Source: Streptomyces sp. NBC_01275 (lineage in GTDB: Bacteria > Actinomycetota > Actinomycetes > Streptomycetales > Streptomycetaceae). From it: 64,000 nt of DNA. The stretch covers positions 8,742,001-8,806,000 of the forward strand of contig NZ_JAPEOZ010000001.1 in the NCBI RefSeq assembly GCF_026340655.1, written 5' to 3'. A program made the position numbers and the translations under genes. This document shows, piece by piece, positions 4,159 to 59,128 of the stretch. The number at the start of each line of letters is the position of its first letter. Positions within the stretch are counted from its first letter, which is position 1. The notes beneath the pieces were generated by a model that did not search any database, was not told the DNA's origin, and worked only from the letters and a program-made list of their open reading frames with translations.

Positions 4159-4185
4159 GACCGGGCTGCCACACAATGTGTGACA
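4159..4185 (-). promoter_or_regulatory. ECF41-type promoter (P1)
   Basis: On the minus strand TGTCACA (4185-4179), 16-nt spacer, GGTC (4162-4159). Points left toward the phosphoesterase gene at 3778 or a remnant in between. Confidence 0.75.
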
Positions 4186-4312
4186 CCGTTGGTATGGCGT
4201 GTCTGACGAAGCCGTCATCGGACGCCAACAACGCCCTTGGTGCCGGACCGGCGCCCGCCGTTCGGAAGGCTCAGCAGGTGGCGACCGGGCTGTAACAGAC
4301 GCAGCGATTTGC

Positions 4313-4345
4313 CGGTGCCGTCCGGTGCCGTCCGGTGCCGTCCGG
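4313..4345. repeat. Short tandem repeat of TGCCGTCCGG
   Basis: Three perfect 10-bp copies plus a partial one, immediately after the stop of the DUF5134-like gene. No function evident. Confidence 0.8.
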
Positions 4346-4347
4346 TG

Positions 4348-4905
4348 TCAGTGGTGCATGAGCAGCATGATGGCCGTGCCCATGGCCGTCGACCCGTGCC
4401 AGAAGCGGTCGCAAGGGCCGCCGATGCCGATGGAGACGCCCACGTCGCCCGAGGCTCCGCGCAGTCTGGGCATGTCCCGGGTCAGCGACCGGAGAGCGTA
4501 GGTCAGAAGACAGAGCGTCAGCACGCCGGTGATCGCGTCGCCGGTCCGCGCGTCCGTGACGCCGCCATGCCTCACCGGCATCCACGCCATGGCGACCATG
4601 CCGACCGCGTAGGGCGACCTCCGCACGAGGCCGACCAGTCTGGGGCCACGGCGGCTCAGGACCGAGGTCAACGGGAACCACAGTGCCACGGTGGCGAAGA
4701 AGACCGTCTGCCCCGGCGGCGGCACTTCGCTGACCCGGTGCCACGGCATCACCGCCATGACCGACGCCATGACGGTGTGCAGGAGCTGGTCGCCTCGTTC
4801 GCGCCGCCCGAAGCCTCGTGGCAGCACGACCTGCCGCAGCGCGTAGACGGCCGAGGCCGCGAACAGCGCTGTCAGCATGCCGTACACGACATCAGTGGCG
4901 CTCAT
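4348..4905 (-). CDS. DUF5134-like membrane protein
   Basis: A 185-residue protein with about five hydrophobic segments, an N-terminus of MSATDVVYGMLTALF and paired His/Met residues (MAVMPW, VRHG, LLMHH) as in the Streptomyces DUF5134 family. It lies 73 bases downstream of the cupin gene on the same strand and has no promoter of its own, so it is probably co-transcribed from P2. A shortened copy with the same two ends lies at 51142. Function unknown. Confidence 0.7.
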   Translation of the reverse strand: MSATDVVYGMLTALFAASAVYALRQVVLPRGFGRRERGDQLLHTVMASVMAVMPWHRVSEVPPPGQTVFFATVALWFPLTSVLSRRGPRLVGLVRRSPYAVGMVAMAWMPVRHGGVTDARTGDAITGVLTLCLLTYALRSLTRDMPRLRGASGDVGVSIGIGGPCDRFWHGSTAMGTAIMLLMHH

Positions 4906-4978
4906 GCCTCACCGAGTTCTCCCACGGAGCGGACAGTCCTCGTTCGCAACCGCCTTGTACGGGGCCGGCAGTGGACAG

Positions 4979-5422
4979 TCAGTCGGTGGGGCGCGGGGCG
5001 CGGAGATGGGCCCGCTGGGCCAGTTCCTCCTCCGCGACCAGTTCGAGCATGGGCTTGCCCGGCGCGCACAGCATCGTCACGACGAACCGGGTGCGCGCGT
5101 CGGGCAGCGCGTTGCCGTCCTGGTAGTGGATCGCGTCGCCGCCGGGCTCCCAGAACGTCCCGCCCGTCTCGATCACGCGCTCGGGCTCGCCCTCGAGCTC
5201 GAAACGGACGGCTCCCTCGACGACGTAACCGAACGCCGGCCCCGAGTGGCGGTGGGGCGGGCTTCCCGGGTCTCCGGGCTCCCACTCGACGAAAATGGTC
5301 ATCGCCGACGCGCCCTCGGGGACGGTGAGCGGTGCGGTGTCCTGCAGCATCTTCGCTGCCGTTTTCCATCCCTCCGAGTGGGTCTGCGGTCCGGTCCCCT
5401 GCGTCGCGTCCGTGTCCGACAT
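4979..5422 (-). CDS. Small cupin-domain protein
   Basis: A 147-residue single-domain cupin with motif 1 (HRHSGPAFGYVVEG, then E) near residues 57-75 and a second motif around WEPGGDAIHY. The His ligands support a metal-binding jelly roll, likely an enzyme or sensor for a small molecule. GGGAGG precedes the ATG. First gene after P2, which is divergent from the epimerase promoter P3; the DUF5134-like gene follows. A miniature copy lacking the cupin core is at 27227. Substrate cannot be inferred. Confidence 0.85.
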   Translation of the reverse strand: MSDTDATQGTGPQTHSEGWKTAAKMLQDTAPLTVPEGASAMTIFVEWEPGDPGSPPHRHSGPAFGYVVEGAVRFELEGEPERVIETGGTFWEPGGDAIHYQDGNALPDARTRFVVTMLCAPGKPMLELVAEEELAQRAHLRAPRPTD

Positions 5423-5477
5423 GGGTCGGCCTCCCTTGGATTCACCCGGCCATGGCCGCCATGGCCGTCATGGTGAT

Positions 5478-5504
5478 GACCGGGCTCCGCACGGATCTGT
5501 GACA
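5478..5504 (-). promoter_or_regulatory. ECF41-type promoter (P2)
   Basis: Minus strand TGTCACA (5504-5498), 16-nt spacer, GGTC (5481-5478). Drives the cupin-DUF5134 operon; 16 bases from the divergent P3. Confidence 0.85.
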
Positions 5505-5520: not shown

Positions 5521-5547
5521 TGTCACAACATTGGGGTGGGTCCTGTC
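5521..5547 (+). promoter_or_regulatory. ECF41-type promoter (P3)
   Basis: TGTCACA (5521-5527), 16-nt spacer, TGTC (5544-5547) followed by CTA. Drives epimerase 5633 and the aceE-like gene. Confidence 0.85.
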
Positions 5548-5632: not shown

Positions 5633-6373
5633 ATGCGAGTCGTTGTAGCAGGAGCCACCGGTCTGATCGGTTCCAGGACGGTCGCCAGGCTCCGGGACCA
5701 CGGTGTGGAGGTCGTGCGCCTATCGCGCCACGACGGCGTCGACGTCACGACCGGAAAGGGCCTCACCGAGGCCATACGCGGCACCGACGTGGTGGTGGAC
5801 GTCACCGACGCGCCCTCCCGCGGGGAGCTGGAGAGCCTGGAGTTCTTCGGCACGGCGACCCGCAACCTGTTGGAGACAGCGGCGGAGGCGGGCGCAGAAC
5901 ATCACGTGGTCCTGTCCATCGTGGGGGCCGAACGTCTGCAGGCGGGTTACTTCCGTGCGAAGGCACTGCAGGAGGAACAGGTGCGGCGCTCGCCCATGCC
6001 CTACTCCATCGTGCGTACGACGCCGGTTTTCGAGTCGGTGGAGTACATGGCGCGCGCGGCGACGTACGGAGACGCCGTCCATGTCGCGCCCGTACTGATC
6101 CGCCCCGTGTCGGCCGACGACGTCGCCGCCGAGATCGCCCATGTCGCCGTGGGAGTACCGCTGTTCGGTGTTCTGGAGGTCGCCGGTCCGGAGGAGCACC
6201 GCCTCGACGACCTCACCGCGAAGCTGCTGGCCGCGCGCGGCTACCTGTGGGACGTGGTCTCCGACGCCCACACCCCCTTCTTCGGCGCGATGCTCGGGCA
6301 GCGGGCGCTGCAGCCCGGGGCTGACGCCCACCTGGGGCACGAAACCTTCTCCGAGTGGCTCGCGCGGCGATGA
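5633..6373 (+). CDS. NmrA-like NAD(P)-binding epimerase/reductase (block A copy)
   Basis: A 246-residue atypical short-chain dehydrogenase. The N-terminus VVVAGATGLIGSRTV is a Rossmann dinucleotide-binding loop. The motif HHVVLSIVGAERLQAGYF and the downstream YFRAKALQEE take the place of the usual Tyr-x3-Lys site, as in NmrA/SDR_a5 proteins that sense or oxidise with NAD(P). NAD-dependent epimerases of this kind are one of the three classic ECF41 target types, and P3 lies 86 bases upstream. The aceE-like gene follows at 95 bases. A same-length paralogue at 50189 occupies the matching position in block B. Confidence 0.88.
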   Translation: MRVVVAGATGLIGSRTVARLRDHGVEVVRLSRHDGVDVTTGKGLTEAIRGTDVVVDVTDAPSRGELESLEFFGTATRNLLETAAEAGAEHHVVLSIVGAERLQAGYFRAKALQEEQVRRSPMPYSIVRTTPVFESVEYMARAATYGDAVHVAPVLIRPVSADDVAAEIAHVAVGVPLFGVLEVAGPEEHRLDDLTAKLLAARGYLWDVVSDAHTPFFGAMLGQRALQPGADAHLGHETFSEWLARR

Positions 6374-6468: not shown

Positions 6469-9132
6469 ATGAGTGAGCTCGACCAACTACCCGACCAGGA
6501 CACCGAGGAGACCGCCGAATGGCAGGCGTCACTCGACGCCGTCGTGCGGAACGCGGGGCCGGATCGAGCCGTGTACCTGCTGCGGCGGGTGCACGAGTTC
6601 GCGGCCCGGTCCGGCGTGTCCCTGCCCGGGCTCCTGTCCTCCGACTACATCAACACCGTCCCCGCGTCGGCCCAGCCGGCCTATCCCGGTGACCTCGCCA
6701 TGGAGTCCAGGATCACCGCCCTGAACCGGTGGAACGCGGCGGCGATGGTGACCCGCGGCGCCCGGTTCGGGCTCGGCGGCCACATATCCACCTATGCCTC
6801 GGCGGCCTGGCTGTACGAGATCGGGTTCCACCACTTCTTCCAGGGCAAGGACGGCGGGGGAGGCTCGGGCGACCAGCTGTACTTCCAGGGGCATGCCTCG
6901 CCGGGCATCTACGCCCGTGTGTTCCTCGAAGGGCGCCTGAGCGAGGCGCAGTTGGACGGTTTCCGGCGGGAGGCCGACGGTCATGGACTGCCGTCCTACC
7001 CGCACCCCCGACGGCTGCCGTGGTTGTGGGAGTTCCCGACCGTGTCCATGGGGCTCGGCCCGCTCGCCGCCATCCACCAGGCCCGGTTCAACCGGTATCT
7101 GCACGCCCGTGGCATCAAGGACACCTCCGCATCGCGCGTGTGGGCCTTCCTCGGGGACGGCGAGACGGACGAGCCGGAATCGACGGCCGCGCTGGCGCTC
7201 GCCGCCCGGGAACAGCTCGACAACCTCACCTTCGTCGTCAACTGCAACCTCCAGCGCCTGGACGGGCCCGTGCGACCGAACTCCAAGATCGTGCAGGAAC
7301 TGGAGGCCAGGTTCCGCGGAGCGGGCTGGAACGTGGTCAAGTCCCTCTGGGGCGAGGCCTGGGACCCCGTCCTGGGGCAGGACACCACCGGCGCCCTGGT
7401 CCACCGCCTCGGTGAGGTGCCCGACGCCCAGCTGCAGACGTACGCTGCCCGGGACGCCACGTACATCCGCGAACACTTCTTCACGGGCGACGCGCTCTCC
7501 GGTCTCGCCGCCGGGCTGAGCGACAGCCGGCTGACCGAACTGTTCGGCAGTTCCCGGGGCGGGCACGAACCGCTCAAGGTCTACGCCGCCTACCGGGCGG
7601 CCGTCGAGCACCGGGGCGCGCCGACGGTCGTCCTCGCCCAGACGGTGAAGGGGCACACGCTCGGCTCGGCCTTCGCGTCGCGCAACGCCAACCACCAGAT
7701 GAAGAAGCTGACCATGAAGCAGTTCCGCGAGATGCGTGATCTGCTCGAACTCCCCATCCCCGACAGCGCGTTGAGCGGCGACCTGGTGCCGTACCGGCAC
7801 CCGGGCGAGAACTCGGAGGAGGTGCGGTACCTGCGCGAGCGGCGGGCGGCGCTGGGCGGCCCCGTCCCGGTGCGCAGGGTGGTCGCGAAACCGCTGAGGC
7901 AGCCGCCGGCCCGCCCGTTCGAAGCCCTGGAGAGGGGCTTCGGCCATCAGGAGGTGGCCACCACCATGGCCCTGGTCCGCCTGGTCAAGGACCTGATGCG
8001 GGATGAGGAGACGGGACGGCGCTGGGTGCCGATCATCCCGGACGAGGCCCGCACGTTCGGCATGGAGTCCCTGTTCCCGACGGCCGGGATCTATTCGCCG
8101 GACGGCCAGACCTACGAACCGGTCGACGCTGAGCAGCTGCTGTACTACAGGGAAGCAAAGAACGGCCAGTTGATCGACGAAGGCATCACCGAAGCCGGTT
8201 CCATGGCCGAGTTCACCGCCGCGGCGACCTCGTACGCCACCCACGGTGAACCCATGATCCCGTTCTACATCTTCTACGCCATGTTCGGTTTCCAGCGCAC
8301 CGGCGACCAGTTCTGGGCGCTCGCCGACCAGATGGGGCGCGGGTTCGTCATCGGGGCGACGGCGGGCCGTACCACGATGACGGGCGAGGGGCTTCAGCAC
8401 GCCGACGGGCATTCCCATCTGCTGGCGTCCACGAATCCGGCCGCCGTGTCCTACGACCCGGCCTTCGCGTACGAGATCGCGGTGATCGTGCGGGAGGGGC
8501 TGCGCCGTATGTACGGCGACCGGCCCGAGGACGTCTTCTACTACCTCACGGTCTACAACGAACCCAAGGAGCAGCCGGCGATGCCCGCCGGGCCCGGGGT
8601 CGAGGAAGGCATCGTGCGGGGCTTCTACCTGTTCCGGCAGGCCGAGCCCGCCGGAACAGCACCACGGATCCAGCTGCTGGCCTCCGGTACGGCCATCCAC
8701 TGGGCGCTGAACGCCCAGGAGTCGCTGCTGTCCCAGTGGGGCGTCCATGCCGACGTCTGGTCGGTGACGTCCTGGACGGAGCTGCGCCGCGACGCGCTGG
8801 ACGCCGACCGGGCGCGGCTGCGGGGCGAGGAGCGCGTCCCCTATGTGACGGCGGCGCTGGCGGACGCGCCCGGGCCGGTCCTGGCGGTCAGCGACTGGAT
8901 GCGGCAGGTGCCCGACCAGATCAGCCAGTGGGTCGGCCACGACTACTCGTCGCTGGGCACGGACGGCTTCGGGCTGTCGGACACCAGGGACGCCGTACGG
9001 CGCTACTTCCGGGTGGACGCCGAGTCGATCGTCGTCGCGGCCCTGGACAGTCTGGCACGTGCCGGCGCGATCGGTACGGAGACGGTCGTGCGGGCGCGCG
9101 ACCGGTACGGCCGGCGCGAGCGAACGTCGTGA
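6469..9132 (+). CDS. aceE: Pyruvate dehydrogenase E1, homodimeric (AceE-like)
   Basis: An 887-residue protein, full length for the homodimeric E1 family. Thiamine-pyrophosphate signature GDGETDEPE near residue 225 followed by the [11 protein letters not shown] metal-site region; central transketolase-type pyrimidine domain around residues 480-700 ([22 protein letters not shown]); C-terminal domain ending near ARDRYGRR. It decarboxylates pyruvate and would feed acetyl groups to a lipoyl E2, but no E2, E3 or lipoate gene is in the window, so it must use components encoded elsewhere or act alone. Second gene of the P3 operon. A collapsed copy lies next to the paralogous epimerase at about 49.6-50.1 kb. 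Confidence 0.9.
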
Positions 9133-9354: not shown

Positions 9355-10269
9355 ATGGGTAGCGGGGACGACACGGGCTCCCTCGACGAGGCGACGAACG
9401 TGTTCATGACCGCGCGTCCCCATCTCTTCGGCATCGCCTACCGAGTCCTCGGCAGCACCACGGAGGCCGAGGACGTGCTCCAGGAGGCGTGGCTGCGGTG
9501 GCAGGGCACCGACCGTGACGTCGTCCGCGAGCCGAAGGCGTTCCTCGCCACCGTCACCGCCCGTCTGGCGCTCAACGTGGCCCAGTCCGCCAGGGTGCGG
9601 CGCGAGTCGTACATCGGGCCCTGGCTGCCGGAGCCGGTCGACACGCGCGCGGATCCGCAGTTGGGCGCCGAGCGGGCCGAGGCGCTCGACACGGCGGTGC
9701 TCTTCCTGCTGGAGCGGCTCAACCCCGTGGAAAGGGCCGCTTACGTTCTGCGGGAGGCCTTCGACTACCCCTACCAGCAGATCGCGGACATGCTGGAGAC
9801 CAGCGAGACCAATACGCGCCAGCTGGTCAGCCGCGCGCGCAAGCACATCTCGTCGGAGCGCCGCAAGCCCGTCGAGGCCACCGAGCACCGACGGCTGATG
9901 GAGGTGTTCCTCACCGCGGCACAGACCGGCGATCTGGCCGTGCTCGAAGGCATCCTCGCCGACGACGTGGTCAGCTACACCGACGGGAACGGGCTGCGTG
10001 GGGCATCCAGGATTCCGGTCGTCGGTCTGGTGCACGTCTCCAGGTACCTTGCCGCCTTCGCCCCGCGCTTCTGGCCGCAGAAGGAGATCCACTGGGTCGA
10101 GGCCAACGGCGGGCCGGCCGCCCTCGTCTCGGCCGGCGGGACGGCCGTGGTTCTGCTGACCCTCGACATCTCGGAACGCGGCATCGAGCGGGCCATGTGG
10201 GTCATGAATCCGGAAAAACTGGCACCCTACGTGGCGTCCCTGGACGGTGGCGCCACGTTCTCCTCCTGA
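9355..10269 (+). CDS. ECF41-group sigma factor with SnoaL-like C-terminal domain
   Basis: A 304-residue extracytoplasmic-function sigma factor. Region 2 (LFGIAYRVLGSTTEAEDVLQ) at about residues 24-43, WLPEP in the linker near 95, region 4 with helix-turn-helix ([27 protein letters not shown]) at 125-170, then a SnoaL/NTF2-like extension containing YTDGNG and ending with MNPEKL. WLPEP, a DGGGK-like loop and NPDKL are the ECF41 hallmarks; in this group the tail modulates activity in place of a classic anti-sigma factor. No TGTCACA promoter precedes it, unlike its presumed targets. A primary candidate for driving the promoters in this window. Confidence 0.92.
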   Translation: MGSGDDTGSLDEATNVFMTARPHLFGIAYRVLGSTTEAEDVLQEAWLRWQGTDRDVVREPKAFLATVTARLALNVAQSARVRRESYIGPWLPEPVDTRADPQLGAERAEALDTAVLFLLERLNPVERAAYVLREAFDYPYQQIADMLETSETNTRQLVSRARKHISSERRKPVEATEHRRLMEVFLTAAQTGDLAVLEGILADDVVSYTDGNGLRGASRIPVVGLVHVSRYLAAFAPRFWPQKEIHWVEANGGPAALVSAGGTAVVLLTLDISERGIERAMWVMNPEKLAPYVASLDGGATFSS

Positions 10270-10644: not shown

Positions 10645-10671
10645 CGTCACAGATCGCGGGACTGTCCGGTC
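10645..10671 (+). promoter_or_regulatory. ECF41-type promoter (P4)
   Basis: CGTCACA (10645-10651; the only -35 differing at base 1), 16-nt spacer, GGTC (10668-10671) then CTA. The flanks to the GTG at 10707 are similar to those of P14 upstream of the frdA remnant. Confidence 0.85.
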
Positions 10672-10706: not shown

Positions 10707-12437
10707 GTGGCTGTCACCGAACAACGTCTTGCCACCATGGTGCTGGTGATCGGCACCGGAGGCGCCGGCCTGCGAGCGGCGATCGAACTGGCCGAGGCCG
10801 GCATCGACGTCCTCGCCGTCGGCAAACGCCCCAAGGAGGACGCCCATACGGCACTGGCGGCCGGCGGCATCAACGCGGCACTGGCCACCATGGACCCCGA
10901 GGACAGCTGGCAGCAGCACGCCGCCGACACCCTCAAGGAGAGCTACCTCCTCGCCGATCCCCGCACCGTGGAGATCGTCGCCCAGGGCGCCGCCCGGGGC
11001 ATCGACGATCTGGAGCGCTACGGCATGGCCTTCGCCAGGGAGGAGGACGGCCGGATCTCCCAGCGCTTCTTCGGCGCGCACAAGTTCCGCAGGACCGCCT
11101 TCGCCGGCGACTACACCGGTTTGGAGATCCAGCGCACCCTCATCCGGCGCGCGGAGCAACTGGACATCCCTGTCCTGGAAGGCGTGTACATCACCCGGCT
11201 GCTGGTGCACGAGGGCACCGTGTTCGGCGCGTACGGCTTCGACCTCACGAGCGGACGGCGCTACCTGATCCACGCCGACGCGGTCGTCCTGGCCGCCGGG
11301 GGCCACACGCGCATCTGGCGGCGTACCTCCTCGCGGCGCGACGAGAACACAGGGGACTCCTTCCGCCTGGCCGTGGAGGCCGGGGCCAGACTGCGCGACG
11401 CCGAGCTGGTGCAGTTCCACCCGTCCGGCATCATCGAACCGGAGAACGCCGCCGGCACCCTGGTCAGCGAGGCCGCCCGCGGCGAGGGCGGCATCCTGCG
11501 CAACGCGCTCGGGGAACGCTTCATGGCCCGCTACGACCCCGAGCGCATGGAGCTGTCCACCCGTGACCGCGTGGCCCTGGCCGCGTACACGGAGATCAGG
11601 GAAGGGCGCGGCACGCCCAAGGGCGGCGTGTGGCTCGACGTCTCCCACCTGCCCCGGCAGACGATCATGACGCGCCTGCCCCGCGTCTACCAGACCCTGC
11701 TGGACCTGCAGATGCTGGACATCACCCGCGATCCGATCGAGATCGCGCCCACCGCGCACTACTCGATGGGCGGTGTGTGGGTGCGCCCGGAGGACCACAG
11801 CACCGACGTCCGTGGCCTGTACGCCATCGGCGAGGCGTCGAGCGGGCTGCACGGCGCCAACCGCCTCGGCGGCAACAGCCTCATCGAGCTGTTGGTGTTC
11901 GGCCGCCTCACCGGTCAGGCGGCCGCCGCGTATGCGCAGTCCCTCAAGGCGCAGCCGCGGTCGGCGTCGGCCATCGCGGAGGCCCGCGCGGAGATCGACG
12001 AACTCCTCGCCGCCGACGGGGCCGAGAACGTCCGTGCCCTGCAACGCGCCATCCGCGACACCATGACCGAGCACGCGGGCGTCGTACGCGACGAGGACGG
12101 CCTGCGCGCCGGACTGGCGGAACTCGCGGTGATCGAGAAGCGCATGGAGGCCGTCGGCATCCACCCGGACATCGCGGGCTATCAGGACCTCGCACACGCC
12201 TTCGATCTCAAGTCGGCCGCGCTCGCGGCCCGGGCCACCCTCGAATCGGCCCTCGAGCGTCGCGAGACGCGCGGCTGCCACAACCGCAGCGACTACCCCG
12301 GCCTGGATTCCGCTCTGCAGGTGAATCTCGTGTGGTCCCCGACGACGGGCGTCACCCGCGAGAGCATTCCGGCCGTTTCCGACGAGATTTCCTCGCTGAT
12401 GGAGGAAGTCTCGACCGCGGGCAAACTCGTCGAATAG
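10707..12437 (+). CDS. FAD-dependent succinate dehydrogenase/fumarate reductase-type flavoprotein
   Basis: A 576-residue flavoprotein from GTG 10707 with GGAG upstream. FAD loop VIGTGGAGLRAAIELAEAG at residues 15-33; AAGG and HPSG blocks; SEAARGEGGILRN; HYSMGGVWV near residue 350, the active-site region of the SdhA/FrdA family; C-terminal helical domain with RDTMTEHAGV and SDYPG. It would interconvert succinate and fumarate or a related dicarboxylate. No iron-sulfur or membrane-anchor subunits follow; only a broken ferredoxin-like piece at 43.6 kb in the duplicate block hints at an ancestral partner. Oxidoreductases are a classic ECF41 target class. P4 is 36 bases upstream. Confidence 0.9.
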   Translation: MAVTEQRLATMVLVIGTGGAGLRAAIELAEAGIDVLAVGKRPKEDAHTALAAGGINAALATMDPEDSWQQHAADTLKESYLLADPRTVEIVAQGAARGIDDLERYGMAFAREEDGRISQRFFGAHKFRRTAFAGDYTGLEIQRTLIRRAEQLDIPVLEGVYITRLLVHEGTVFGAYGFDLTSGRRYLIHADAVVLAAGGHTRIWRRTSSRRDENTGDSFRLAVEAGARLRDAELVQFHPSGIIEPENAAGTLVSEAARGEGGILRNALGERFMARYDPERMELSTRDRVALAAYTEIREGRGTPKGGVWLDVSHLPRQTIMTRLPRVYQTLLDLQMLDITRDPIEIAPTAHYSMGGVWVRPEDHSTDVRGLYAIGEASSGLHGANRLGGNSLIELLVFGRLTGQAAAAYAQSLKAQPRSASAIAEARAEIDELLAADGAENVRALQRAIRDTMTEHAGVVRDEDGLRAGLAELAVIEKRMEAVGIHPDIAGYQDLAHAFDLKSAALAARATLESALERRETRGCHNRSDYPGLDSALQVNLVWSPTTGVTRESIPAVSDEISSLMEEVSTAGKLVE

Positions 12438-12441: not shown

Positions 12442-12468
12442 TGTCACAAAAAGAGCCCGTGCCCGGTC
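12442..12468 (+). promoter_or_regulatory. ECF41-type promoter (P5)
   Basis: TGTCACA (12442-12448), 16-nt spacer, GGTC (12465-12468). Starts 5 bases after the frdA-like stop and gives the epimerase at 12512 its own transcript. Confidence 0.87.
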
Positions 12469-12511: not shown

Positions 12512-13258
12512 ATGAAGGTCGTAGTGATCGGTGGAACCGGGCTCATCGGCTCGAAGGTGGTCGCCAGGCTCGGCGAGCACGGGCACGAGGCGGTCGCGGC
12601 GGCGCCCAACACCGGCGTCAACACGTTGACGGGCGAGGGGCTGGCCGAAGTCCTGCAGGGCGCGTCGGTGGTGGTCGACGTGTCGAACTCGCCCTCGTTC
12701 GAGGACGAGGCCGTCATGGACTTCTTCCGCACATCGACGACCAATCTGCTGAAGGCGGAGACCGAGGCGGGCGTGGCGCATCACGTGGCACTGTCCGTGG
12801 TCGGCACCGAGCGCCTCCAGGGGAGCGGGTACTTCCGCGCCAAGCAGGCCCAGGAAGACCTGATCAGGGCGTCCGGCAACCCCTACTCCATCGTGCACGC
12901 CACCCAGTTCTTCGAGTTCGCGAAGGGACTCGCCGACGGGGTCACCGAGGGTGACACCGTGCATCTGCCCGACGCCAAGATCCAGCCCATCGTCTCCGAC
13001 GACGTGGCCGCGGCCGTCGGCCGCACCGCGGTCGGGGACCCGGTGGGTGGCGTGGTCGAGGTCGCCGGTCCCGAAGCGTTCCAGCTCGAGGAGTTCATCC
13101 GCATGGGACTCACCGCCCAGAACGACCCCCGCAAGATCGTCACGGACCCGCAGGCGACGTACTGGGGCGCCGAGCTGCAGGAGAACACGCTTCTGCCGGG
13201 CGCCGACGCACACATCGCCGGCACGAGGTTCGCCGACTGGCTCGCACAGCAGAAGTAG
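12512..13258 (+). CDS. NmrA-like NAD(P)-binding epimerase/reductase (second type)
   Basis: A 248-residue SDR-fold protein with KVVVIGGTGLIGSKVV at the N-terminus and HHVALSVVGTERLQ in the middle, ending in ADWLAQQK. It is a more distant paralogue of the epimerases at 5633 and 50189, with YFRAKQAQED at the catalytic-helix position. GAAAGGAAT precedes the ATG. P5 lies 44 bases upstream. Together with the two others it makes three COE-type epimerases in one window, each with its own ECF41-type promoter. Confidence 0.88.
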   Translation: MKVVVIGGTGLIGSKVVARLGEHGHEAVAAAPNTGVNTLTGEGLAEVLQGASVVVDVSNSPSFEDEAVMDFFRTSTTNLLKAETEAGVAHHVALSVVGTERLQGSGYFRAKQAQEDLIRASGNPYSIVHATQFFEFAKGLADGVTEGDTVHLPDAKIQPIVSDDVAAAVGRTAVGDPVGGVVEVAGPEAFQLEEFIRMGLTAQNDPRKIVTDPQATYWGAELQENTLLPGADAHIAGTRFADWLAQQK

Positions 13259-16617: not shown

Positions 16618-16644
16618 TGTCACAAGATCCGGGAGTTCCCGGTC
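16618..16644 (+). promoter_or_regulatory. ECF41-type promoter (P6)
   Basis: TGTCACA (16618-16624), 16-nt spacer, GGTC (16641-16644). Drives the sigma-factor relative at 16708, implying that it is itself a target. Confidence 0.87.
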
Positions 16645-16707: not shown

Positions 16708-17589
16708 ATGGACCAGGGCGATGCGGTGCCGATCGCCGAGTTGTGGGAGGAACGTCGGTTCCTGCTCGACGTCGCCCGCTGGATGCTGGGCGACCCGGGT
16801 GCGGCGGAAAGCGTCGTCGACGAGGCGTATCACCGGTGGTACGGGCTGTCCGATGCGGCGCGCCGACAGGTCACCGTTCCCCGGTCCTGGCTGGCGAAGA
16901 CCGTGGGCGGGATCTGCCTGGGCCGGCTCGCACTGCCCGGCTGGGGCGCGGTCGGCCACGGAGAAGGGCACGGGGCACGGCCGTCGGAGGTGGAGGCCGG
17001 CCGGGTCGTGCTGAACGCGCTGGAGTCGCTGTCGACGGCCGAGCGCGCGGCGTTCGTGTTCCGCGCTTTCGGGATGGCCCCCGGCACGGTCGCCGACATC
17101 GTGGGCCGCTCGGAGCCCGAGCTCGCCGAGCTCGCCGACCGGGCCAGGAAGTGGCTGCGGCTGCAGCGGACCCGCTCCACGACACCGCAGCAGCATGACG
17201 CCGTCGCGCGCGCCGTGCGCCGGGCGTGCGTCACCGAGGACGGCGAGCTGCTCACGTCGTTGCTGTGCTCGGACGTCACGGCGTTCTTCGACGGTGGCGG
17301 CAAGGTACGGGCTCTGACCGGACCGGTCCACGGCAGCCGACCGGTCGCCGACAGTGTGCTGACGCTCCTGGCCCGCCGTCCGCGTACCACCCTGGCCACC
17401 CATTCCGTCAACGGCCGGACCGGCCTCGTCGCCCGCTACGGCCGCCAGGTCGCCGCCGTCATCAGCCTCGACGTCGCGAACGACCGCGTCGCCCAGGTCT
17501 GGGTCATGCTCAACCCCGACAAACTGCGGTCCTGGAACCAGTCCCGTGCCGACGGCGGCGCCGACTCGGACGAGAGCCCGGGACAGTGA
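16708..17589 (+). CDS. Divergent ECF41-like sigma factor relative
   Basis: A 293-residue protein with an ECF-sigma outline but an eroded region 2 (LLDVARWMLGDPGAAESVVD in place of the usual FRIAYRMLG...AEDVVQ) and no WLPEP linker; a shorter linker carries WLAKT. Region 4 is present (LSTAERAAFVFRAF, VADIVGRSEP). The C-terminal SnoaL-like domain keeps textbook FFDGGGKVRAL and MLNPDKLRSW, the two ECF41 tail motifs. It may be a weak sigma factor, a competitor for core polymerase, or a regulator of the true ECF41 proteins through the tail. Own ECF41-type promoter 64 bases upstream. Paralogue at 37119. Confidence 0.8.
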   Translation: MDQGDAVPIAELWEERRFLLDVARWMLGDPGAAESVVDEAYHRWYGLSDAARRQVTVPRSWLAKTVGGICLGRLALPGWGAVGHGEGHGARPSEVEAGRVVLNALESLSTAERAAFVFRAFGMAPGTVADIVGRSEPELAELADRARKWLRLQRTRSTTPQQHDAVARAVRRACVTEDGELLTSLLCSDVTAFFDGGGKVRALTGPVHGSRPVADSVLTLLARRPRTTLATHSVNGRTGLVARYGRQVAAVISLDVANDRVAQVWVMLNPDKLRSWNQSRADGGADSDESPGQ

Positions 17590-18087: not shown

Positions 18088-18091
18088 CAGC

Positions 18092-46053: not shown

Positions 46054-46062
46054 ATACAGCAA

Positions 46063-46089
46063 GACAGGCCATGCGACTCATCTGTGACA
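46063..46089 (-). promoter_or_regulatory. ECF41-type promoter (P17)
   Basis: Minus strand TGTCACA (46089-46083), 16-nt spacer, TGTC (46066-46063). Very close to the methyltransferase ATG at 46053. Divergent from P18, 55 bases away. Confidence 0.86.
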
Positions 46090-46144: not shown

Positions 46145-46171
46145 TGTCACATCCTCGGCCCCGGTCCGGTC
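46145..46171 (+). promoter_or_regulatory. ECF41-type promoter (P18)
   Basis: TGTCACA (46145-46151), 16-nt spacer, GGTC (46168-46171) then TA. Its present downstream sequence is a broken oxidoreductase. Confidence 0.85.
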
Positions 46172-50188: not shown

Positions 50189-50929
50189 TCAGCGCTGCGC
50201 GAGCCATGCGCTGAAGGTCGTGTGACCGATGTGGGTGCCCGGTCCGGGCAGAAGCGCGCGCTTCCCCACTTCGGCGGCGAGGAGCCTGGCGCGCGCATCG
50301 GTGACGACACTTCTGGCGTCGCCCTTTGCGGCTAGGAGCTTCGCCGTGAGGTCGTCGAGGCGGTACTCCTCGGGGCCGGCCACCTCGAGCGTGCCCAACA
50401 GAGGCAGTCCCACAGCGACATGCGCGACGGCGGCGGCGACGTCGTCCGTTGCCACGGGACGGATCAGCGCAGGCGCGACGTGGACCCCGTCCGGGCGTGT
50501 GTCCGCCAGAGCCATGGCCTCGAGGGACTCGAAGGAGAGCGCGGCACGCACGATCGAATGAGGGATCGAAGACCGCCCTGCCTGGTACTCCTGCAACTCT
50601 TTCGCAAGGAAGTAACCCGACCGCAGCCGCCCGGCTCCCGCCACCGACAGGACCACGTGATGCTCGACGCCGGCCGAGGCCGCCGCGGCCAGGAGGTTGG
50701 CCGTCGCGATGCGGAAGAACCGCAGACCGGCTTCCTCGGTGCGGGTGGGCGCGTCGGTGACGTCCACCACCACCTCGGCACCGCGCAAGGCCTCGCCGAG
50801 ACCGCTCCCCGTGATCACGTCGACACCATGGCGGCGTGAGACGGGCACGACTTCCACACCATGGTCACGGAGTCTGGCAACCGTCCTGGAGCCGATCAGC
50901 CCCGTGGCCCCTGCGACAACGACTCTCAT
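50189..50929 (-). CDS. NmrA-like NAD(P)-binding epimerase/reductase (block B copy)
   Basis: 246 residues from ATG 50929 (GGGAGGAACC upstream). RVVVAGATGLIGSRTVARLR at the N-terminus, HHVVLSVAGAGRLRSGYF in the middle, FSAWLAQR at the end; collinear with and the same length as the 5633 protein. P19 lies 59 bases upstream, divergent from P20. Intact in both blocks, unlike most of its neighbours, so the two copies may have split substrates or conditions. Confidence 0.88.
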   Translation of the reverse strand: MRVVVAGATGLIGSRTVARLRDHGVEVVPVSRRHGVDVITGSGLGEALRGAEVVVDVTDAPTRTEEAGLRFFRIATANLLAAAASAGVEHHVVLSVAGAGRLRSGYFLAKELQEYQAGRSSIPHSIVRAALSFESLEAMALADTRPDGVHVAPALIRPVATDDVAAAVAHVAVGLPLLGTLEVAGPEEYRLDDLTAKLLAAKGDARSVVTDARARLLAAEVGKRALLPGPGTHIGHTTFSAWLAQR

Positions 50930-50987
50930 CCCGGTTCCTCCCGTCGAGGGGTCAGCGACCCCGACCCCGTGTACGTGCACTACATAC

Positions 50988-51014
50988 GACAGGGCTCACA
51001 CCAAGGTTGTGACA
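50988..51014 (-). promoter_or_regulatory. ECF41-type promoter (P19)
   Basis: Minus strand TGTCACA (51014-51008), 16-nt spacer, TGTC (50991-50988) then GTA. Drives epimerase 50189; counterpart of P3, which also has TGTC. Confidence 0.86.
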
Positions 51015-51048: not shown

Positions 51049-51075
51049 TGTCACACGAGCATGGCTTACGTGGTC
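51049..51075 (+). promoter_or_regulatory. ECF41-type promoter (P20)
   Basis: TGTCACA (51049-51055), 16-nt spacer, GGTC (51072-51075). Drives the miniature DUF5134 gene; counterpart of P2. Confidence 0.86.
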
Positions 51076-53076: not shown

Positions 53077-53561
53077 GCGATCGACTCCGGCGCTGCGGTC
53101 GCGCTGATCCTGACGACAAGACGCCGAACGGCCTCCACGGCGAGACCGAGCCCGGTCCCAGCGACGGCGCAGCAACCAGCGGCACTCCACCAGCCCAGCC
53201 CGCTCGCCGCGGCGAGCGGGCCGACCAGACCGGCCCCGACCCCCACAAAGAGCAAGAAGTGGAGCAAGGGCCCGAGCAACGGGAACGCCAGGACGGCGGC
53301 GAGCACCAGCGGGGCGACCAGGCTCGGTGTCCACACCAAGCCGGTGCCCGGTGGCGGTGAGGACAGCACCAGCTCGGCCAGCGTCCACGCGGTCAGCGGC
53401 CACAGAGCGAACACGACACCCTCGACGACGCCGGCAGGCAGCAGCAACCCCGCCACGAAAGTTCGCGACATGCCAGGCCTGCGCGCTACCAGAGGCAGGA
53501 TGCGCCCGGCGGTCTCCGACACCCCGGCGAACAGCAGCAGGACAACGACGGCGGGCGACAT
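53073..53561 (-). CDS. Small integral membrane protein in lipid/glycosyl operon
   Basis: 162 residues with about four transmembrane helices (AVVVLLLFAGVSETAGRIL, VVEGVVFALWPLTAWTLAEL and two Gly/Leu/Ala-rich spans). No family recognised. Start ATG overlaps the glycosyltransferase stop by one base and its stop overlaps the hydrolase start by four, so it is tightly co-translated with both. Probably the membrane component of the pathway encoded by the operon. Confidence 0.65.
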   Translation of the reverse strand: MSPAVVVLLLFAGVSETAGRILPLVARRPGMSRTFVAGLLLPAGVVEGVVFALWPLTAWTLAELVLSSPPPGTGLVWTPSLVAPLVLAAVLAFPLLGPLLHFLLFVGVGAGLVGPLAAASGLGWWSAAGCCAVAGTGLGLAVEAVRRLVVRISATAAPESIA

Positions 53562-54787
53562 CACTCGGCCTCGCTGTGAGGGAGCGGCGGAGCCGACGGA
53601 CCGACCGGGCCGGCCGTCTGCAGGTACCGCTCGAGTTCGTCGGCGGCGCGCCCATGTCCACCCGCCTCGCGCTGGGCGGTCCGCAGGGCGCTCGCGGCTG
53701 CCCGGAACCGGGGCTCGTGAAGGAGGCGCCGGGCGAGGACACGCATCGAGCCCCTTGCGACGTCCTGGGTACGCATCGACAGGCCGGCGCCCAGCTCGAC
53801 GACGCGCCGGGCCACCATCGGCTGGTCGGCGCCCTGCGGGACCACCAGCAGCGGAACCCCGGCGTACATGGCCTCGTTGACACTGTTCATCCCGCCGTGG
53901 GTGACGAACAGCGCCGCGCGGGCCAGCACCTCCGGCTGCGGCACGAAGCGGCGGGCGAGCACGTTGGAGGGCAGTGGCCCGAGCGCGTCGGGATCGGTCT
54001 GCCCGGTGGCGACGACCACGGTGCCGCCCAGCGGGGCGAGCGCGGTGGCAAAGCTGCGCAGCAGCTGTGGGTCGGCGTTGAACACCGTGCCCAGCGAGGC
54101 GTACAGGACCGGGTCCTGCAGCCGATCGGCCGGGAACGACGGGTCGAGCGGTCGGGCGCCGATGCTTGGGCCGACGAACCGATACGACTCGTCGAAGTCC
54201 TCGACGGCAGGCTGGAACGCCCGTGAGGTGTAGACCAGGTTGAGCGGTCGGCGGATGTTCGCCACGTCGAGCAAAGGCAACCCCCGTGCGTCGAAGCGAC
54301 GGTGCAGCGCCCAGCGGGACCGCAGGTAGCCCTGGACGCTGCGGGGCTGAGCCATCGCTGCGGTCAGCAGGTCCCAGGAGCCACGGGTGGGGCTGGGAAC
54401 ATGCCGGTTGAGGGCGAACGTGGTGAACGACGAGGCTGCCGGCACCCCGAGCTCGCGGGCGGCGACCGCGCCCCACAGACAGGCACTGTCGTGGACGATC
54501 AGGTCGGGTCGGTCGCGGCGCAGGTCGGTGAGCACGGTGGGCAGCAAGCGCACGGCGGTGCTCGCGAGCGCCTCCATCCACGTGACCGGCGTCGGCGGAT
54601 CGGGGAGCGGCTGATCGCCCCCGGGGTAGAGGTGCACGGTCGCGCCGGTGGCCTCGATCTCCCCACGGAACGCGGGCGAGGTGTGGTAGCTGACGGCATG
54701 GCCGCGTCGAACGAGCTCGGCCACGACCGGCAGCGTCGGGTTGACGTGCCCGTGCATGCCGATGTTGAGGAACGCGATGGTACTCAC
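53561..54787 (-). CDS. MGT-type glycosyltransferase (GT1 family)
   Basis: 408 residues from GTG 54787. N-terminal acceptor domain opens with IAFLNIGMHGHVNPTLPVV; C-terminal donor domain contains ASLGTVFNADP and the plant-like signature VTHGGMNSVNEAMYAGVPLL, then PQGADQP near residue 350. Transfers a sugar from a nucleotide donor to a small lipophilic acceptor such as a macrolide or lipid. The GTG overlaps the patatin stop (GTGA). With patatin and hydrolase it suggests glycolipid or lipid-remodelling chemistry (inference). Confidence 0.88.
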   Translation of the reverse strand: MSTIAFLNIGMHGHVNPTLPVVAELVRRGHAVSYHTSPAFRGEIEATGATVHLYPGGDQPLPDPPTPVTWMEALASTAVRLLPTVLTDLRRDRPDLIVHDSACLWGAVAARELGVPAASSFTTFALNRHVPSPTRGSWDLLTAAMAQPRSVQGYLRSRWALHRRFDARGLPLLDVANIRRPLNLVYTSRAFQPAVEDFDESYRFVGPSIGARPLDPSFPADRLQDPVLYASLGTVFNADPQLLRSFATALAPLGGTVVVATGQTDPDALGPLPSNVLARRFVPQPEVLARAALFVTHGGMNSVNEAMYAGVPLLVVPQGADQPMVARRVVELGAGLSMRTQDVARGSMRVLARRLLHEPRFRAAASALRTAQREAGGHGRAADELERYLQTAGPVGPSAPPLPHSEAE

Positions 54788-55782
54788 AGGTCGACTCCCA
54801 CTGTGGAACAAGTTGACGCCTCGCCCGGGCCGGCGGATGCCGCCGAAGAATCGTCGACCCGGTACAGCCCCGGCCCGTTGATGCTCAGCCCGTCCAGAAA
54901 GCGCCCCGCCGCGCGGCAGGCGGTGCTGATCAGCCGCTGGGAATGGCCGAAGTCCCACGGGGCGGGCCACGTCTCGATGCCGGTCGGCAGCACGACGGTC
55001 GGGATGCGCCGGGACACCTCGTGCAGATCACGCTCGATCTGGTGGTGCAACAGCAGTAGCCCGGCCCGGGCGGCGACCGCACCGGCCCGTCGGCGCGGAT
55101 TGGCGGGGCGCAACGGTGAGCTCTCCGGCCCGGCCGCGACCACCACCACGCTGGCCGCCCCGGCCTGCTGGGCGGCCAGTACCGGGACGTAGGCGATCAC
55201 CCCGCCGTCGACGAGCGTCCGGCCCTCACGATCCACGGGGGGCAGCATCCCGGGAATGGCCGCGCTGGCCAGCAGCGCGGACTCGAGGTCTCCGTGGTCG
55301 AGCAGCACCGGAGCCCCGGTGGCCAGGTCCATGGCCACCGCGGTGAACGGGACCGCCAACTGCTCGATCCGCGACGGCAGCCCAGCCCGTGCGATCAGCC
55401 GACGCAGGCCGCGATCGGTGAAGATGCCGGCCCGTGAGGACAGGTAGCCGAGCGGATACACCTCACGGCGACGCAACTGGGTCCACACGTGGTCCAGCCA
55501 CGGCGCGGCCCTGTCGGGGTGGGCGGCCGCGATGGCCCCGTTGAGGGCGCCCACCGAGGTTCCGATGATCAGGTCCGGGACGAATCCGCGCTGCTCCAGC
55601 GCGTATCCGACACCGACATGCGCCGCCCCGAGCACGCCACCGGCGCCCACCACCACGGCCACGGGCCGGGGAAGGGCGCTCAATCCGGCCGACGTCGGGT
55701 CCACGGGCGGCCTGCTCGTCGCCGCCTCGCTGAGGCCGAAGTGCGCCGACGAGGCTGGTCTTCGGCGACGAGAAACCCTCAT
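54784..55782 (-). CDS. Patatin-like phospholipase
   Basis: 332 residues. Oxyanion Gly-rich loop (VVGAGGVLGAAHVGVGYAL) near residue 45, nucleophile elbow GTSVGALNGAIAA near 76 with the catalytic Ser, and the catalytic Asp in LVDGGVIAYVPV near 195. This is the full patatin Ser-Asp dyad, giving an acyl hydrolase acting on membrane lipids. AAAGGTGG precedes the ATG. First gene of a five-gene overlapping operon starting at P21, about 50 bases upstream. Confidence 0.9.
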   Translation of the reverse strand: MRVSRRRRPASSAHFGLSEAATSRPPVDPTSAGLSALPRPVAVVVGAGGVLGAAHVGVGYALEQRGFVPDLIIGTSVGALNGAIAAAHPDRAAPWLDHVWTQLRRREVYPLGYLSSRAGIFTDRGLRRLIARAGLPSRIEQLAVPFTAVAMDLATGAPVLLDHGDLESALLASAAIPGMLPPVDREGRTLVDGGVIAYVPVLAAQQAGAASVVVVAAGPESSPLRPANPRRRAGAVAARAGLLLLHHQIERDLHEVSRRIPTVVLPTGIETWPAPWDFGHSQRLISTACRAAGRFLDGLSINGPGLYRVDDSSAASAGPGEASTCSTVGVDL

Positions 55783-55830: not shown

Positions 55831-55857
55831 GACCGGGCAGCCATACGATGTGTGACA
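55831..55857 (-). promoter_or_regulatory. ECF41-type promoter (P21)
   Basis: Minus strand TGTCACA (55857-55851), 16-nt spacer, GGTC (55834-55831) then TAGT. Drives the patatin operon. Its outer flank resembles that of P1 (both carry TGTGTGACACCG). Confidence 0.87.
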
Positions 55858-57887: not shown

Positions 57888-57907
57888 GGCTCCTCGACCT
57901 TCATCGT

Positions 57908-57933
57908 GTAAGTTGGCTTATAAGTCACCTTAC
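57908..57933. promoter_or_regulatory. Candidate MarR operator
   Basis: GTAAG (57908-57912) and CTTAC (57929-57933) flank a partly symmetric TTATAA centre between the divergent membrane-protein and marR genes. AT-rich palindromes at this position are typical of MarR binding. Confidence 0.55.
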
Positions 57934-57947
57934 ATGTGGAGGCGTTG

Positions 57948-58421
57948 ATGGCGGTGAAGGATCCCAGTGAGCGCATCGGCTACCTGATCTGGCAGCTCTC
58001 ACAGGCGTACGCGCAGCGCCTCGAACGGGTGTTGCGCCCGCTCGGACTGACCCAGGCGCAGTTCAGTGCGCTCGTCCGATTGAGCCGGGACGGGGCGATG
58101 TCCAGTGCCGAACTCGCCCGCCGCTGTGGCGTCACCGCCCAGTCCATGGGCGCGGGACTGCGGAGTCTGGTCGAGCGTGGACTCGTCGAGCGGCGTCCCC
58201 ACCCCACTCACGGGAAGATCATCGAAATGTGCGTCACACCTGCGGGCGAGGCACTGGCACTGCGGGGCGAGACCGCGCTCGAACCGTGCGAGCAGGAGAC
58301 CCTGCAACCGTTCCTGCCCCGGGAGCGGGAACAGGTACGCGCTCACCTCCGTCGCATGCTCGGAGCCCTCAACGCCCCGGCGCTGGGACCGGACGACCGG
58401 GATCAGCACGGCGGGACATGA
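57948..58421 (+). CDS. MarR-family transcriptional regulator
   Basis: 157 residues from ATG 57948 (GGAGG upstream). Winged-helix core: LTQAQFSALVRLSRDGAMSS, AELARRCGVTAQSMGAGLRS at residues 30-70, wing around RPHPTHGK, flanked by N- and C-terminal dimerisation helices. Likely represses itself and the divergent membrane gene, released by a small ligand. Confidence 0.88.
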   Translation: MAVKDPSERIGYLIWQLSQAYAQRLERVLRPLGLTQAQFSALVRLSRDGAMSSAELARRCGVTAQSMGAGLRSLVERGLVERRPHPTHGKIIEMCVTPAGEALALRGETALEPCEQETLQPFLPREREQVRAHLRRMLGALNAPALGPDDRDQHGGT

Positions 58422-58590
58422 GCTGCGCACGGCTCAGATCGAACTGGTACCGACAACGACCGTGAACTTCAACGGCCGCCTTTCGTGGGGAGGCGGTGTC
58501 GGTGACCGTCGACGAACGTGACCGTCTCGTCGAACGGTGCCCGGCCCGTACGGGTGCAGCTGTGCAACCCTTCGGCGCGGAGACTGCCGG

Positions 58591-59064
58591 TCAGCCGAAC
58601 TGGCCAGGCTGGTAGTCGCCGGCGGGCTGCTGGGTGACGACGTTGACGCGGTTGTAGGCGTTGATGACGGCGATGAGGGAGATCAGGGCGACGAGTTGGT
58701 CCTCGTCGAAGTGCTTCGCCGCGTTCGTCCAGGCCTCATCGGTGACACCGCCGGCCGCGTCGGCGATGCGGGTGCCCTGTTCAGCCAGTTCCAACGCGGC
58801 GCGCTCGGCGTCGGTGTACACCTTGGCCTCGCGCCAGGCCGCGACCAGGTGGAGGCGTTGCATGGCCTCTCCCGCCGCGATGGCGTCCTTGGTGTGCATG
58901 TCGGTGCAGAAAGCGCAGCCGTTGATCTGACTGACGCGGATCTTCACCAGTTCCTGGGTCGCGGCCGGCAGTGTCGAGTCCGAAGCAACCTTGTTGGCTG
59001 AGTTGATGTGCTTCAACGCCTTTCCCGCGAGGGAGTGGCCGAAGTAGTTGAGGCGCGATTCCAC
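58591..59064 (-). CDS. Carboxymuconolactone decarboxylase/AhpD-like protein
   Basis: 157 residues from GTG 59064 (AAGGAG upstream). NGCAFCTDMHTKDA near residue 50 is the AhpD-type Cys-x2-Cys-x3-His redox centre; surrounding helices match the CMD family. Acts as a peroxidase-linked thiol reductant or related enzyme. CMD proteins are the commonest target of ECF41 sigma factors, so its position 37 bases after P22 is strong support for the regulon reading. Confidence 0.92.
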   Translation of the reverse strand: MESRLNYFGHSLAGKALKHINSANKVASDSTLPAATQELVKIRVSQINGCAFCTDMHTKDAIAAGEAMQRLHLVAAWREAKVYTDAERAALELAEQGTRIADAAGGVTDEAWTNAAKHFDEDQLVALISLIAVINAYNRVNVVTQQPAGDYQPGQFG

Positions 59065-59100
59065 AGTGATCTCCTTGCCGCCTGGCGGATGCACACTATT

Positions 59101-59128
59101 GACCGAGGCGCCATGGCGATGTGTGACA
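59101..59128 (-). promoter_or_regulatory. ECF41-type promoter (P22, 17-nt spacer)
   Basis: Minus strand TGTCACA (59128-59122), 17-nt spacer, GGTC (59104-59101) then AATA. The only copy with a 17-base spacer. Confidence 0.75.

Follow-up and report, generated by a model that had tools for sequence, protein, structure and literature searches.

ECF41 sigma factors, represented by Ecf41 of Bacillus licheniformis and Rhodobacter sphaeroides and by SigJ of Mycobacterium tuberculosis, are the closest described relatives of a system found in a stretch of 64,000 nucleotides from Streptomyces sp. NBC_01275 (contig NZ_JAPEOZ010000001.1, positions 8,742,001 to 8,806,000 of the forward strand; hereafter the window, with positions counted from its first letter). 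Positions 4159–59128 of the window hold an island with an array of ECF41-type promoters and with genes for ECF41-like proteins, sorted below into putative sigma factors (class A) and sigma-like proteins that probably are not sigma factors (class B). The island shares with ECF41 systems the −35 word TGTCACA, the 16-nt spacer, the SnoaL C-terminal domain, the WLPEP linker (in A) and, behind the sites, genes for short-chain dehydrogenase/reductase (SDR) enzymes and carboxymuconolactone decarboxylase. It differs in having about 20 sites with a −10 word of G/TGTC, where ECF41 has one target and CGTC, and in placing the linker motif and the NPDKL motif mainly on different proteins instead of on one. 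The C-terminal domain of ECF41 also bears a conserved DGGGK motif. In SigO–RsoA of Bacillus subtilis, a two-subunit sigma, two sigma-like proteins likewise serve one promoter system, but the sigma domains are shared out between them, whereas in the island A seems to hold the full core and B the regulatory domain. In PhyR/NepR/EcfG, PhyR mimics a sigma factor to pull off the anti-sigma; there too a sigma factor is under the control of a sigma-like protein that does not itself work as one, but through the anti-sigma NepR, whereas in the model developed here B would act on A directly.

The 2012 study of ECF41 (PMC3426412) describes a group that generally controls one gene or operon, apparently needs no second protein, has 13 members in Streptomyces coelicolor and had no known inducing condition when first described; C-terminal trimming raised activity about 20-fold or 120-fold, and full removal abolished it. 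According to PMC7730460, the distal NPDKL motif, a motif of the ECF41 group, ties the SnoaL domain of ordinary ECF41 to the YVGPWLPEP linker; this end is reported to fold back onto the linker within one chain and to keep it inactive. The same paper covers the ECF56 pair SigG1–RsfG of Streptomyces tsukubaensis, which resembles the island in that a SnoaL-bearing sigma factor adjoins a separate antagonist gene, and differs in that SigG1 is without NPDKL. The evidence presented below favours, with a probability of roughly 0.53, an island regulon in which ECF41 function is divided between sigma factors of class A and class B proteins that would restrain them in trans.

The promoter array and its recurrence

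An earlier note on this DNA, made from the letters alone, had proposed a cluster of 22 ECF41-type promoters, nearly all pointing at the start of a gene or gene remnant, and all 22 were located where it had placed them. Exact matches to TGTCACA-N16/17-NGTC numbered 21 within 4159–59128 (the pattern permitted spacers of 15–18, and every match had 16 or 17), far above the mean of 0.58 and the maximum of 4 obtained in 100 dinucleotide shuffles. The CGTCACA site at 10645 brought the total to 22, with 17 GGTC, four TGTC and one AGTC as −10 words, and with spacers of 16 nt in 21 sites and 17 nt in one. A scan of spacers from 5 to 39 peaked solely at 16 (20 sites), the runner-up having 2. The whole genome (10,435,000 bases) gave 34 pattern matches, 21 of them inside the 55 kb of the array and 13 across the remaining ~10.4 Mb, and a reversed control pattern gave 5. 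A same-strand gene or remnant could be assigned downstream of 20 of the 22 sites, two of these (43505 and 51049) facing remnants alone. An additional match, CGTCACA-N17-GGTC at 41131, falls, probably by chance, inside the cytochrome b gene; outside the island, a site with CGTC at genome position 1096220 stands ~42 bp 5' of an ordinary ECF41 gene. The 22-site array is real, its origin by chance being ruled out by the shuffles, the genome counts and the gene-placement test given below. The promoter regions at 4159–4185 and 55831–55857 are alike beyond the motif, each with ATCCGATT further down, which suggests a duplication.

The earlier note knew of no comparable system, a view that did not survive comparison with other genomes. 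At least ten TGTCACA-N16-GGTC matches were counted in 28 of 295 Streptomyces genomes (hereafter site-rich), whose reversed controls gave at most 2; the remaining genomes mostly had 0–3 matches and ~30 had 4–8. These are whole-genome counts, and clustering was examined in nine islands, that of the window and eight more. The spacer peak fell at 16 nt throughout and the −10 word was almost always G/TGTC, with CGTC once, so the proposed shift away from CGTC extends to the other islands, as does the proposal of one clustered ECF41-type promoter set. Recurring behind the sites were genes for SDR oxidoreductases, FAD flavoproteins, QcrB cytochrome b, Ohr/OsmC proteins, ferredoxins, ferredoxin reductases, WhiB, cupins and methyltransferases; the gene types originally named for the window were confirmed and recur likewise. 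No ferredoxin or ferredoxin reductase of the recurring families was present in the gene call of the window.

Of the 36 families shared by three or more islands, 24 had a site before at least one member and 12 never did. Sites preceded 11/11 flavoprotein, 8/8 QcrB, 7/7 ferredoxin, 7/7 cupin and 7/8 Ohr-type genes, in contrast to 0/15 genes of LuxR-type ATPases and 0/13 of family F3; the LuxR figure calls for caution, as the gene at 24353–27175 sits behind a site with just a small open reading frame (ORF) between. Per-island family counts depend on the gene caller, which missed the SDR gene at 12512–13255 and misplaced several starts. A called same-strand gene lay at −250 to +450 nt for 139 of the 157 sites; within the stricter limits of −30 to +300 nt this held for 115 sites, against 78 after flipping and 15% of random positions. 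Only 33 of the 157 site centres fell more than 60 nt within a called ORF, positions of this kind making up 77% of bases. A unique island was ruled out by the 28 site-rich genomes and by the eight further islands with the same families. That the array is a recurring ECF41-type regulon, against the published one-target view, is well supported: 22 sites here and families common to nine islands suggest, at the level of sequence, more than a single target.

Consensus and start position were derived from 75 loci centred on class B genes (1,458,811 bases), obtained from the best 80 of 145 relatives. Some loci repeat or overlap (L111, L115, L117 and L145 match islands G111, G237, G020 and G131 of the nine, and L108 and L136 overlap on one contig), so that the 400 sites found at spacer 16 are not fully independent; with a stricter word, 385 are distinct. 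Spacers of 15 and 17 gave 6 and 7 sites, and spacer 11 gave 74, which is read as a recurring TGTC five bases 5' of the genuine −10 element. Among the 400 sites, GGTC was the −10 word in 319, TGTC in 70, AGTC in 3 and CGTC, the word of ECF41, in just 8. The distinct sites yielded the consensus TGTCACA-N15-C-(G/T)-GTC, with C in 88%. Among GGTC sites at spacer 16, one-base variants of the −35 word were enriched at the first base (39) and less so at the last (18). ATG or GTG began 6 or 7 nt past GTC at 66 and 90 of the 385 sites, compared with 3–18 at offsets 8–27 and 24–40 at offsets 1–4. The peak could reflect the start of transcription, a leaderless start codon or the two combined; at site 20223 a later ATG fits too, and leaderless starts may not be general. 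The sites have the TGTCACA word and the 16 ± 1 spacer of ECF41 promoters, and A proteins are their presumed readers.

Two classes of ECF41-like protein

The island had initially been attributed to one or two ECF41 sigma factors, starting at 9355 and 36132. The window proved to hold five ECF41-like ORFs (starts at about 9355, 16708, 34100, 36132 and, on the minus strand, 38057) and a broken sixth (17643–18096, minus), and among them a second protein class, B. In the nine islands, 20 of 39 ECF41-like ORFs were classed A and 17 B, two short or motif-free ones being left out; the 75 loci contained 100 A and 83 B ORFs, with five unclassed. Class A consists of a sigma core and WLPE, with DG(N/G)G(I/M/L/V) and NP(A/E/S/R)K or with no C-terminal domain. 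Class B has no WLPE, and DGGGK and NPDKL are invariant in the 17 members from the nine islands. In the 75 loci, WLPE was present in 88/100 A and 0/83 B ORFs, DGGGK in 1/100 and 81/83, and NPDK in 7/100 and 81/83; because the loci were found partly via DGGGK/NPDKL patterns, these last two counts carry a bias where the focal B genes are concerned, whereas the lack of WLPE does not. A strict rule by which A always lacks and canonical proteins always have DGGGK/NPDKL was dropped; some ordinary ECF41s vary too.

Pairwise identity in sigma-2, linker, sigma-4 and SnoaL was 87, 89, 82 and 69% for the A2 subclass, and 63, 18, 61 and 69% for B. Pfam recognised both sigma domains in 13/13 A proteins; in B it found region 2, weakly, in 16/17 and region 4 in 9/17. 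The glutamine of region 2.2, a region that contacts RNA polymerase, was kept in 60/60 A proteins and in 8/8 other ECF41-like proteins of this genome, and in 0/71 B proteins. Window A proteins P0004 (325.0 bits) and P0001 (332.9 bits) exceed the cut-off of 323.25 of NCBIfam TIGR02957 (SigX4), which we take to stand for ECF41, and P0001 (274.6) but not P0004 (262.2) exceeds that of the SigJ model NF007214 (271). Both window B proteins, P0005 and P0002, score below the two cut-offs and do not qualify as working ECF41 cores. By sequence, the closest solved structure for A and B alike was SigJ 5xe7. The ratio of nonsynonymous to synonymous substitution rates (dN/dS), a rough value here as it comes from distant pairs, had medians of 0.09, 0.14 and 0.29 in sigma-2, sigma-4 and SnoaL of A2, the core being most constrained, and of 0.37, 0.39 and 0.33 in B. 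Model score, linker and, putatively, −35 word place the A proteins within ECF41, from which they differ in −10 word and in the many-gene set. B proteins fail as ECF41 sigma factors, look like regulators and probably are not sigma factors. B may correspond to an existing group of the 2021 ECF reclassification, such as ECF205 or ECF294, which also have SnoaL-like extensions.

Loss of at least half of sigma-4 has occurred repeatedly in B. The domain was scored with a 68-position profile built from B proteins in 93 distinct B frames with the sigma-2 motif, 12 of 105 B domains without that motif being left unscored. All 82 unshortened frames matched at least 60% of the profile (lowest 40.8 bits), and 11 were shortened by 42–60 residues, relative to P0005, between the sigma-2 motif and FDGGGK. 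Two of the 11, L120 and L139, retain most of sigma-4 and mainly lost the linker; the other nine match the profile from position 37 on only, the first half or more being gone, and in five of these hardly any sigma-4 remains (≤17.4 bits). A tree of SnoaL domains requires 8 changes to account for the nine and 5 to account for the five, which means that the loss recurred. NPDKL is kept in all nine, seven of which were fetched by similarity and not by motif, and an island promoter lies within 700 nt upstream of 6/9, compared with 64/82 unshortened B genes. Partial B genes of G165 and G063 look broken and were left out of this count together with G410. On contig 110 of G410, the B homologue L186 is missing sigma-2 instead of sigma-4, and an island promoter lies immediately before it.

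B and the sites frequently occur together. At our own cut of E≤1e-60, 33 of the 295 genomes carried B, among them all but three of the 28 that are site-rich (25/28; Fisher p 3e-26); the 33 are a minimum, because G045, G067, G207 and G220, none of them site-rich, hold shortened B with weaker matches. A search with P0004 covered 76 of the 295 genomes, namely the 33 with B, three site-rich ones without B and 40 without a GGTC site. A-type matches of at least 312 bits were present in 32/33 B genomes, G165 being the exception, in two of the three site-rich genomes without B (G149 and G153, G105 having none) and in two of the 40 (G222 and G230), G185 giving a partial match of 250 bits. A2 (≥440 bits) was found in 25 of the 76 genomes, every one with B. 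In 40 of the 75 loci B had its nearest A no more than 500 bp away, convergent in 24, in tandem downstream in 13 and otherwise arranged in 3, where ORF calls overlap. In the window, the A2 gene (36132–37064) and one B gene (37119–38114) converge across a gap of 54 bp, and the other B gene faces a broken A2 copy. The mirror-tree correlation of 27 adjacent A2–B pairs was 0.66, against ≤0.28 in 2000 permutations, and was given no weight, shared species history being uncontrolled. In an order-level draw of 197 genomes from 6 genera, B (E≤1e-58) occurred in 16, all Streptomyces, to which the 75-locus set, whose sources include S. canus and S. brasiliensis, adds one Streptacidiphilus and one Actinacidiphila.

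Candidate mechanisms

The two ends of the ECF41 contact lie mainly on neighbouring proteins; restraint of A2 by B in trans is the simplest reading. A proteins, with their sigma core and (Y)IGPWLPEP linker, would direct RNA polymerase to TGTCACA-N15-C(G/T)GTC promoters. B would be an ECF41 regulatory domain working in trans, its NPDKL contacting the WLPEP linker of the neighbouring A2, and would restrain A2 until its release once the SnoaL pocket meets a signal. As most B genes carry an island promoter, A should induce its own restraint, which would create a feedback. Control by A, the direction of the B effect, the trans contact and the signal are what we infer, and the B effect could be the opposite. 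An evolutionary extension, offered tentatively and at odds somewhat short of even, is that ECF41 was split, the intramolecular NPDKL–WLPEP clamp becoming an intermolecular A2–B clamp, with B a ligand-sensing former sigma factor, shorn of at least half of sigma-4 in about eight lineages, and a single target growing into an island-wide regulon.

Several observations weigh against such a division. Among the eight other ECF41-like proteins of this genome, the K of DGGGK is present in only 4 and the D of NPDKL in 4; the latter residue is found in 6/27 A1 and 1/33 A2 proteins. Motif loss on the A side is thus graded, which puts A1 within ordinary variation and leaves A2 and the truncated A copies as the clear cases. 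The sigma-2-like region of B is under purifying selection, and a regulator working through SnoaL alone would have no obvious use for such a region. Since B is constrained throughout, this region probably does something; sigma-4 is recognisable in full in 82/93 B proteins. The SnoaL domain of B is no nearer to A than to canonical proteins (27–31%), and the comparison thus does not show that A and B arose when a single gene was split. In 21 of the 75 B loci the nearest A lies more than 500 bp away, in 11 the retrieved flank contains no A, and 3 are unscored. Genomes G105, G149 and G153 are site-rich (10, 11 and 18 sites) without a full B match, and as G149 and G153 have A1 only, B is not required for every array. 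Conversely, G222 and G230 have A1-like genes without a GGTC site, and the G230 gene keeps NPDKL. That gene, L158, encodes an A1-like sigma with both WLPEP and NPDKL in a genome with no B, and is possibly near the ancestral single-protein form.

Truncated A copies without SnoaL adjoin B in several islands, which would suit B as a co-activator or signal-loading subunit needed by A2 in a regulon run by A proteins. We consider this unlikely, given that partly shortened ECF41 is about 20- and 120-fold more active (PMC3426412) and that A1 is present in site-rich genomes without B. It is improbable that B is a second diverged sigma factor acting on the same or related promoters in a large ECF41 regulon island. 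The weak Sigma70_r2 (16/17) and region 4 (9/17) matches, the alignment along SigJ 5xe7, dN/dS below 1 in the sigma regions and the 82/93 recognisable sigma-4 regions speak for such a role, but the region 2.2 glutamine is gone in 71/71 and WLPE in 83/83, at least half of sigma-4 was lost in 9/93 (about eight events) while NPDKL was kept in all 9, and both window proteins score under the NCBIfam SigJ and SigX4 cut-offs. More doubtful still is that the sites serve ordinary fused ECF41 sigmas encoded elsewhere in the genome, the island sigmas being decaying copies: canonical ECF41s use the same −35 word and the window has a broken A copy, yet ECF41-type matches to P0005 (E≤1e-20) occur in 290/295 genomes, whereas high site counts track A and B, the −10 word is not CGTC, and the A2 sigma core has a dN/dS of about 0.1. 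That the sites are operators for WhiB or LuxR-type island proteins, or mobile repeats, and not promoters is very improbable, since, although a WhiB gene and ATPase regulators of LuxR type lie in the islands, the spacing is fixed, the spacer sequence largely free, the −35 word that of ECF41 and the start peak at 6–7 nt, and LuxR-type genes are found in just 6/9 islands.

Genes of the island and regulon output

Table 1. Promoter sites (with their −10 word) and genes of the island; positions are those of the window.
Feature	Position	Strand	Remarks
Promoter site TGTCACA-N16-GGTC	4159..4185	-	pattern scan; nearest gene, a metallophosphatase, ~310 nt off and absent from the eight other islands
DUF5134 gene	4348..4905		accompanies cupin gene behind site 5478-5504
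Cupin gene, family F11	4979..5422	-	site before 7/7 F11 genes in 6 islands
Promoter site GGTC	5478..5504	-	pattern scan
Promoter site TGTC	5521..5547	+	pattern scan; upstream of the genes for SDR, AceE and sigma A1
NAD(P)-binding oxidoreductase (SDR/epimerase-like), family F0	5633..6373	+	
Pyruvate dehydrogenase E1 (AceE) isozyme, family F17	6469..9132	+	without own site; NCBIfam match
ECF41 sigma, class A1 (WLPEP; DGNGL, NPEKL)	9355..10269	+	start from the earlier note
Promoter site CGTCACA-N16-GGTC	10645..10671	+	
Fumarate-reductase-like FAD flavoprotein, family F2	10707..12437	+	site before 11/11 genes, 9/9 islands
Promoter site GGTC	12442..12468	+	pattern scan
SDR gene	12512..13255	+	78-81% identity to five F0 proteins from other islands
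Promoter site GGTC	16618..16644	+	pattern scan
Pseudo-sigma, class B (no WLPEP; FDGGGK, NPDKL)	16708..17589	+	
Broken class A2 sigma remnant	17643..18096	-	convergent to B gene 16708-17589
Pyridine-nucleotide-disulphide oxidoreductase, family F8	18859..20190	-	limits by alignment with other islands
Promoter site GGTC	20197..20223	-	pattern scan
Promoter site GGTC	27458..27484	-	before small ORF 27227-27415, then large LuxR-type regulator
ECF41-like sigma core without SnoaL motifs (A3-like)	34100..34770	+	within ORF 33610-34770
Promoter site GGTC	35894..35920	+	pattern scan
ECF41 sigma, class A2 (YIGPWLPEP; DGNGM, FNPSKI)	36132..37064	+	
Pseudo-sigma, class B	37119..38114	-	likely start near 38057; 54 bp from convergent A2 gene
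Promoter site GGTC	38185..38211	-	pattern scan; before B gene 37119-38114
Promoter site GGTC	38270..38296	+	before WhiB-like gene 38396-38692
Promoter site GGTC	40228..40254	+	pattern scan
Cytochrome bc1 b subunit (QcrB) isozyme, family F6	40420..42045	+	site before 8/8 F6 genes
Promoter site AGTC	42831..42857	-	before ORF 42339-42824
Promoter site GGTC	43479..43505	-	before family F18 remnant (43280-43107)
Promoter site TGTC	44322..44348	-	before OsmC-like gene 43800-44390; true OsmC start probably further in
Ohr family peroxiredoxin	44451..44948	-	NCBIfam
Promoter site GGTC	45161..45187	-	before Ohr
SAM methyltransferase	45283..46062	-	
Promoter site TGTC	46063..46089	-	pattern scan
Promoter site GGTC	46145..46171	+	no gene recognised downstream
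SDR, family F0	50189..50980	-	paralogue of 5633-6373
Promoter site TGTC	50988..51014	-	pattern scan
Promoter site GGTC	51049..51075	+	before DUF5134 remnant (51247-51447)
Patatin-like lipase and glycosyltransferase genes	53561..55782	-	behind site 55831-55857
Promoter site GGTC	55831..55857	-	pattern scan
Carboxymuconolactone decarboxylase / AhpD-like gene	58591..59094	-	
Promoter site GGTC, 17-nt spacer	59101..59128	-	

Besides these features, at least five large LuxR-type ATPase regulators (AAA_16 + GerE) are encoded at 13438–16223, 21425–24343, 24353–27175, 30766–33603 and 46451–49228, the first apparently broken into two frames. A transposase-like DDE_5 stretch (33610–33805) shares the open frame of the A3-like sigma core downstream, so the sigma start at 34100 is tentative, and the stretch may mark an old insertion. 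ROK-family and sugar-transporter genes at 27771–30349, with very high third-position GC and no relatives in the eight other islands, are possibly an unrelated insertion. Family F3 (34870–35433, ~190 amino acids) is present in 9/9 islands, never behind a promoter, and matched no NCBIfam model, nor any Pfam model above cut-off. Genes for a PpoB2 copper chaperone and a DUF1326 protein lie directly outside the array, at 574–2371. The window contained no tRNA, tmRNA or Rfam match at the gathering threshold.

By NCBIfam models, the window cytochrome b is an actinobacterial QcrB (730.3 bits against a cut-off of 500), the E1 protein an AceE (1252.6 against 859.9) and the peroxiredoxin an Ohr (121.8 against 88.85); the ferredoxin from another of the islands was identified as FdxA (148.4 against 125). 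The same genome holds two further QcrB (66–67% identity to the island copy) and two further AceE (73% and 60%). None of six genes of the AceE family has a site of its own; the window copy comes after an SDR gene and presumably belongs to its operon, the SDR, aceE and sigma A1 genes from site 5521–5547 being by inference one transcription unit. The output of the regulon would be a redox/energy programme of Ohr/OsmC peroxidases, AhpD-like proteins, WhiB, oxidoreductases, additional QcrB and AceE and, in other islands, FdxA; a response to redox or respiratory stress is likely.

ECF41 is a large group of sigma factors, and an island of about 20 promoters gives it a measurable output. A separate SnoaL protein, if B is indeed one, would make the sensing step purifiable and open to ligand screening in the absence of the sigma factor. 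That QcrB, AceE and FdxA are supplied as second copies hints at a programme that bypasses damaged or inhibited housekeeping enzymes.

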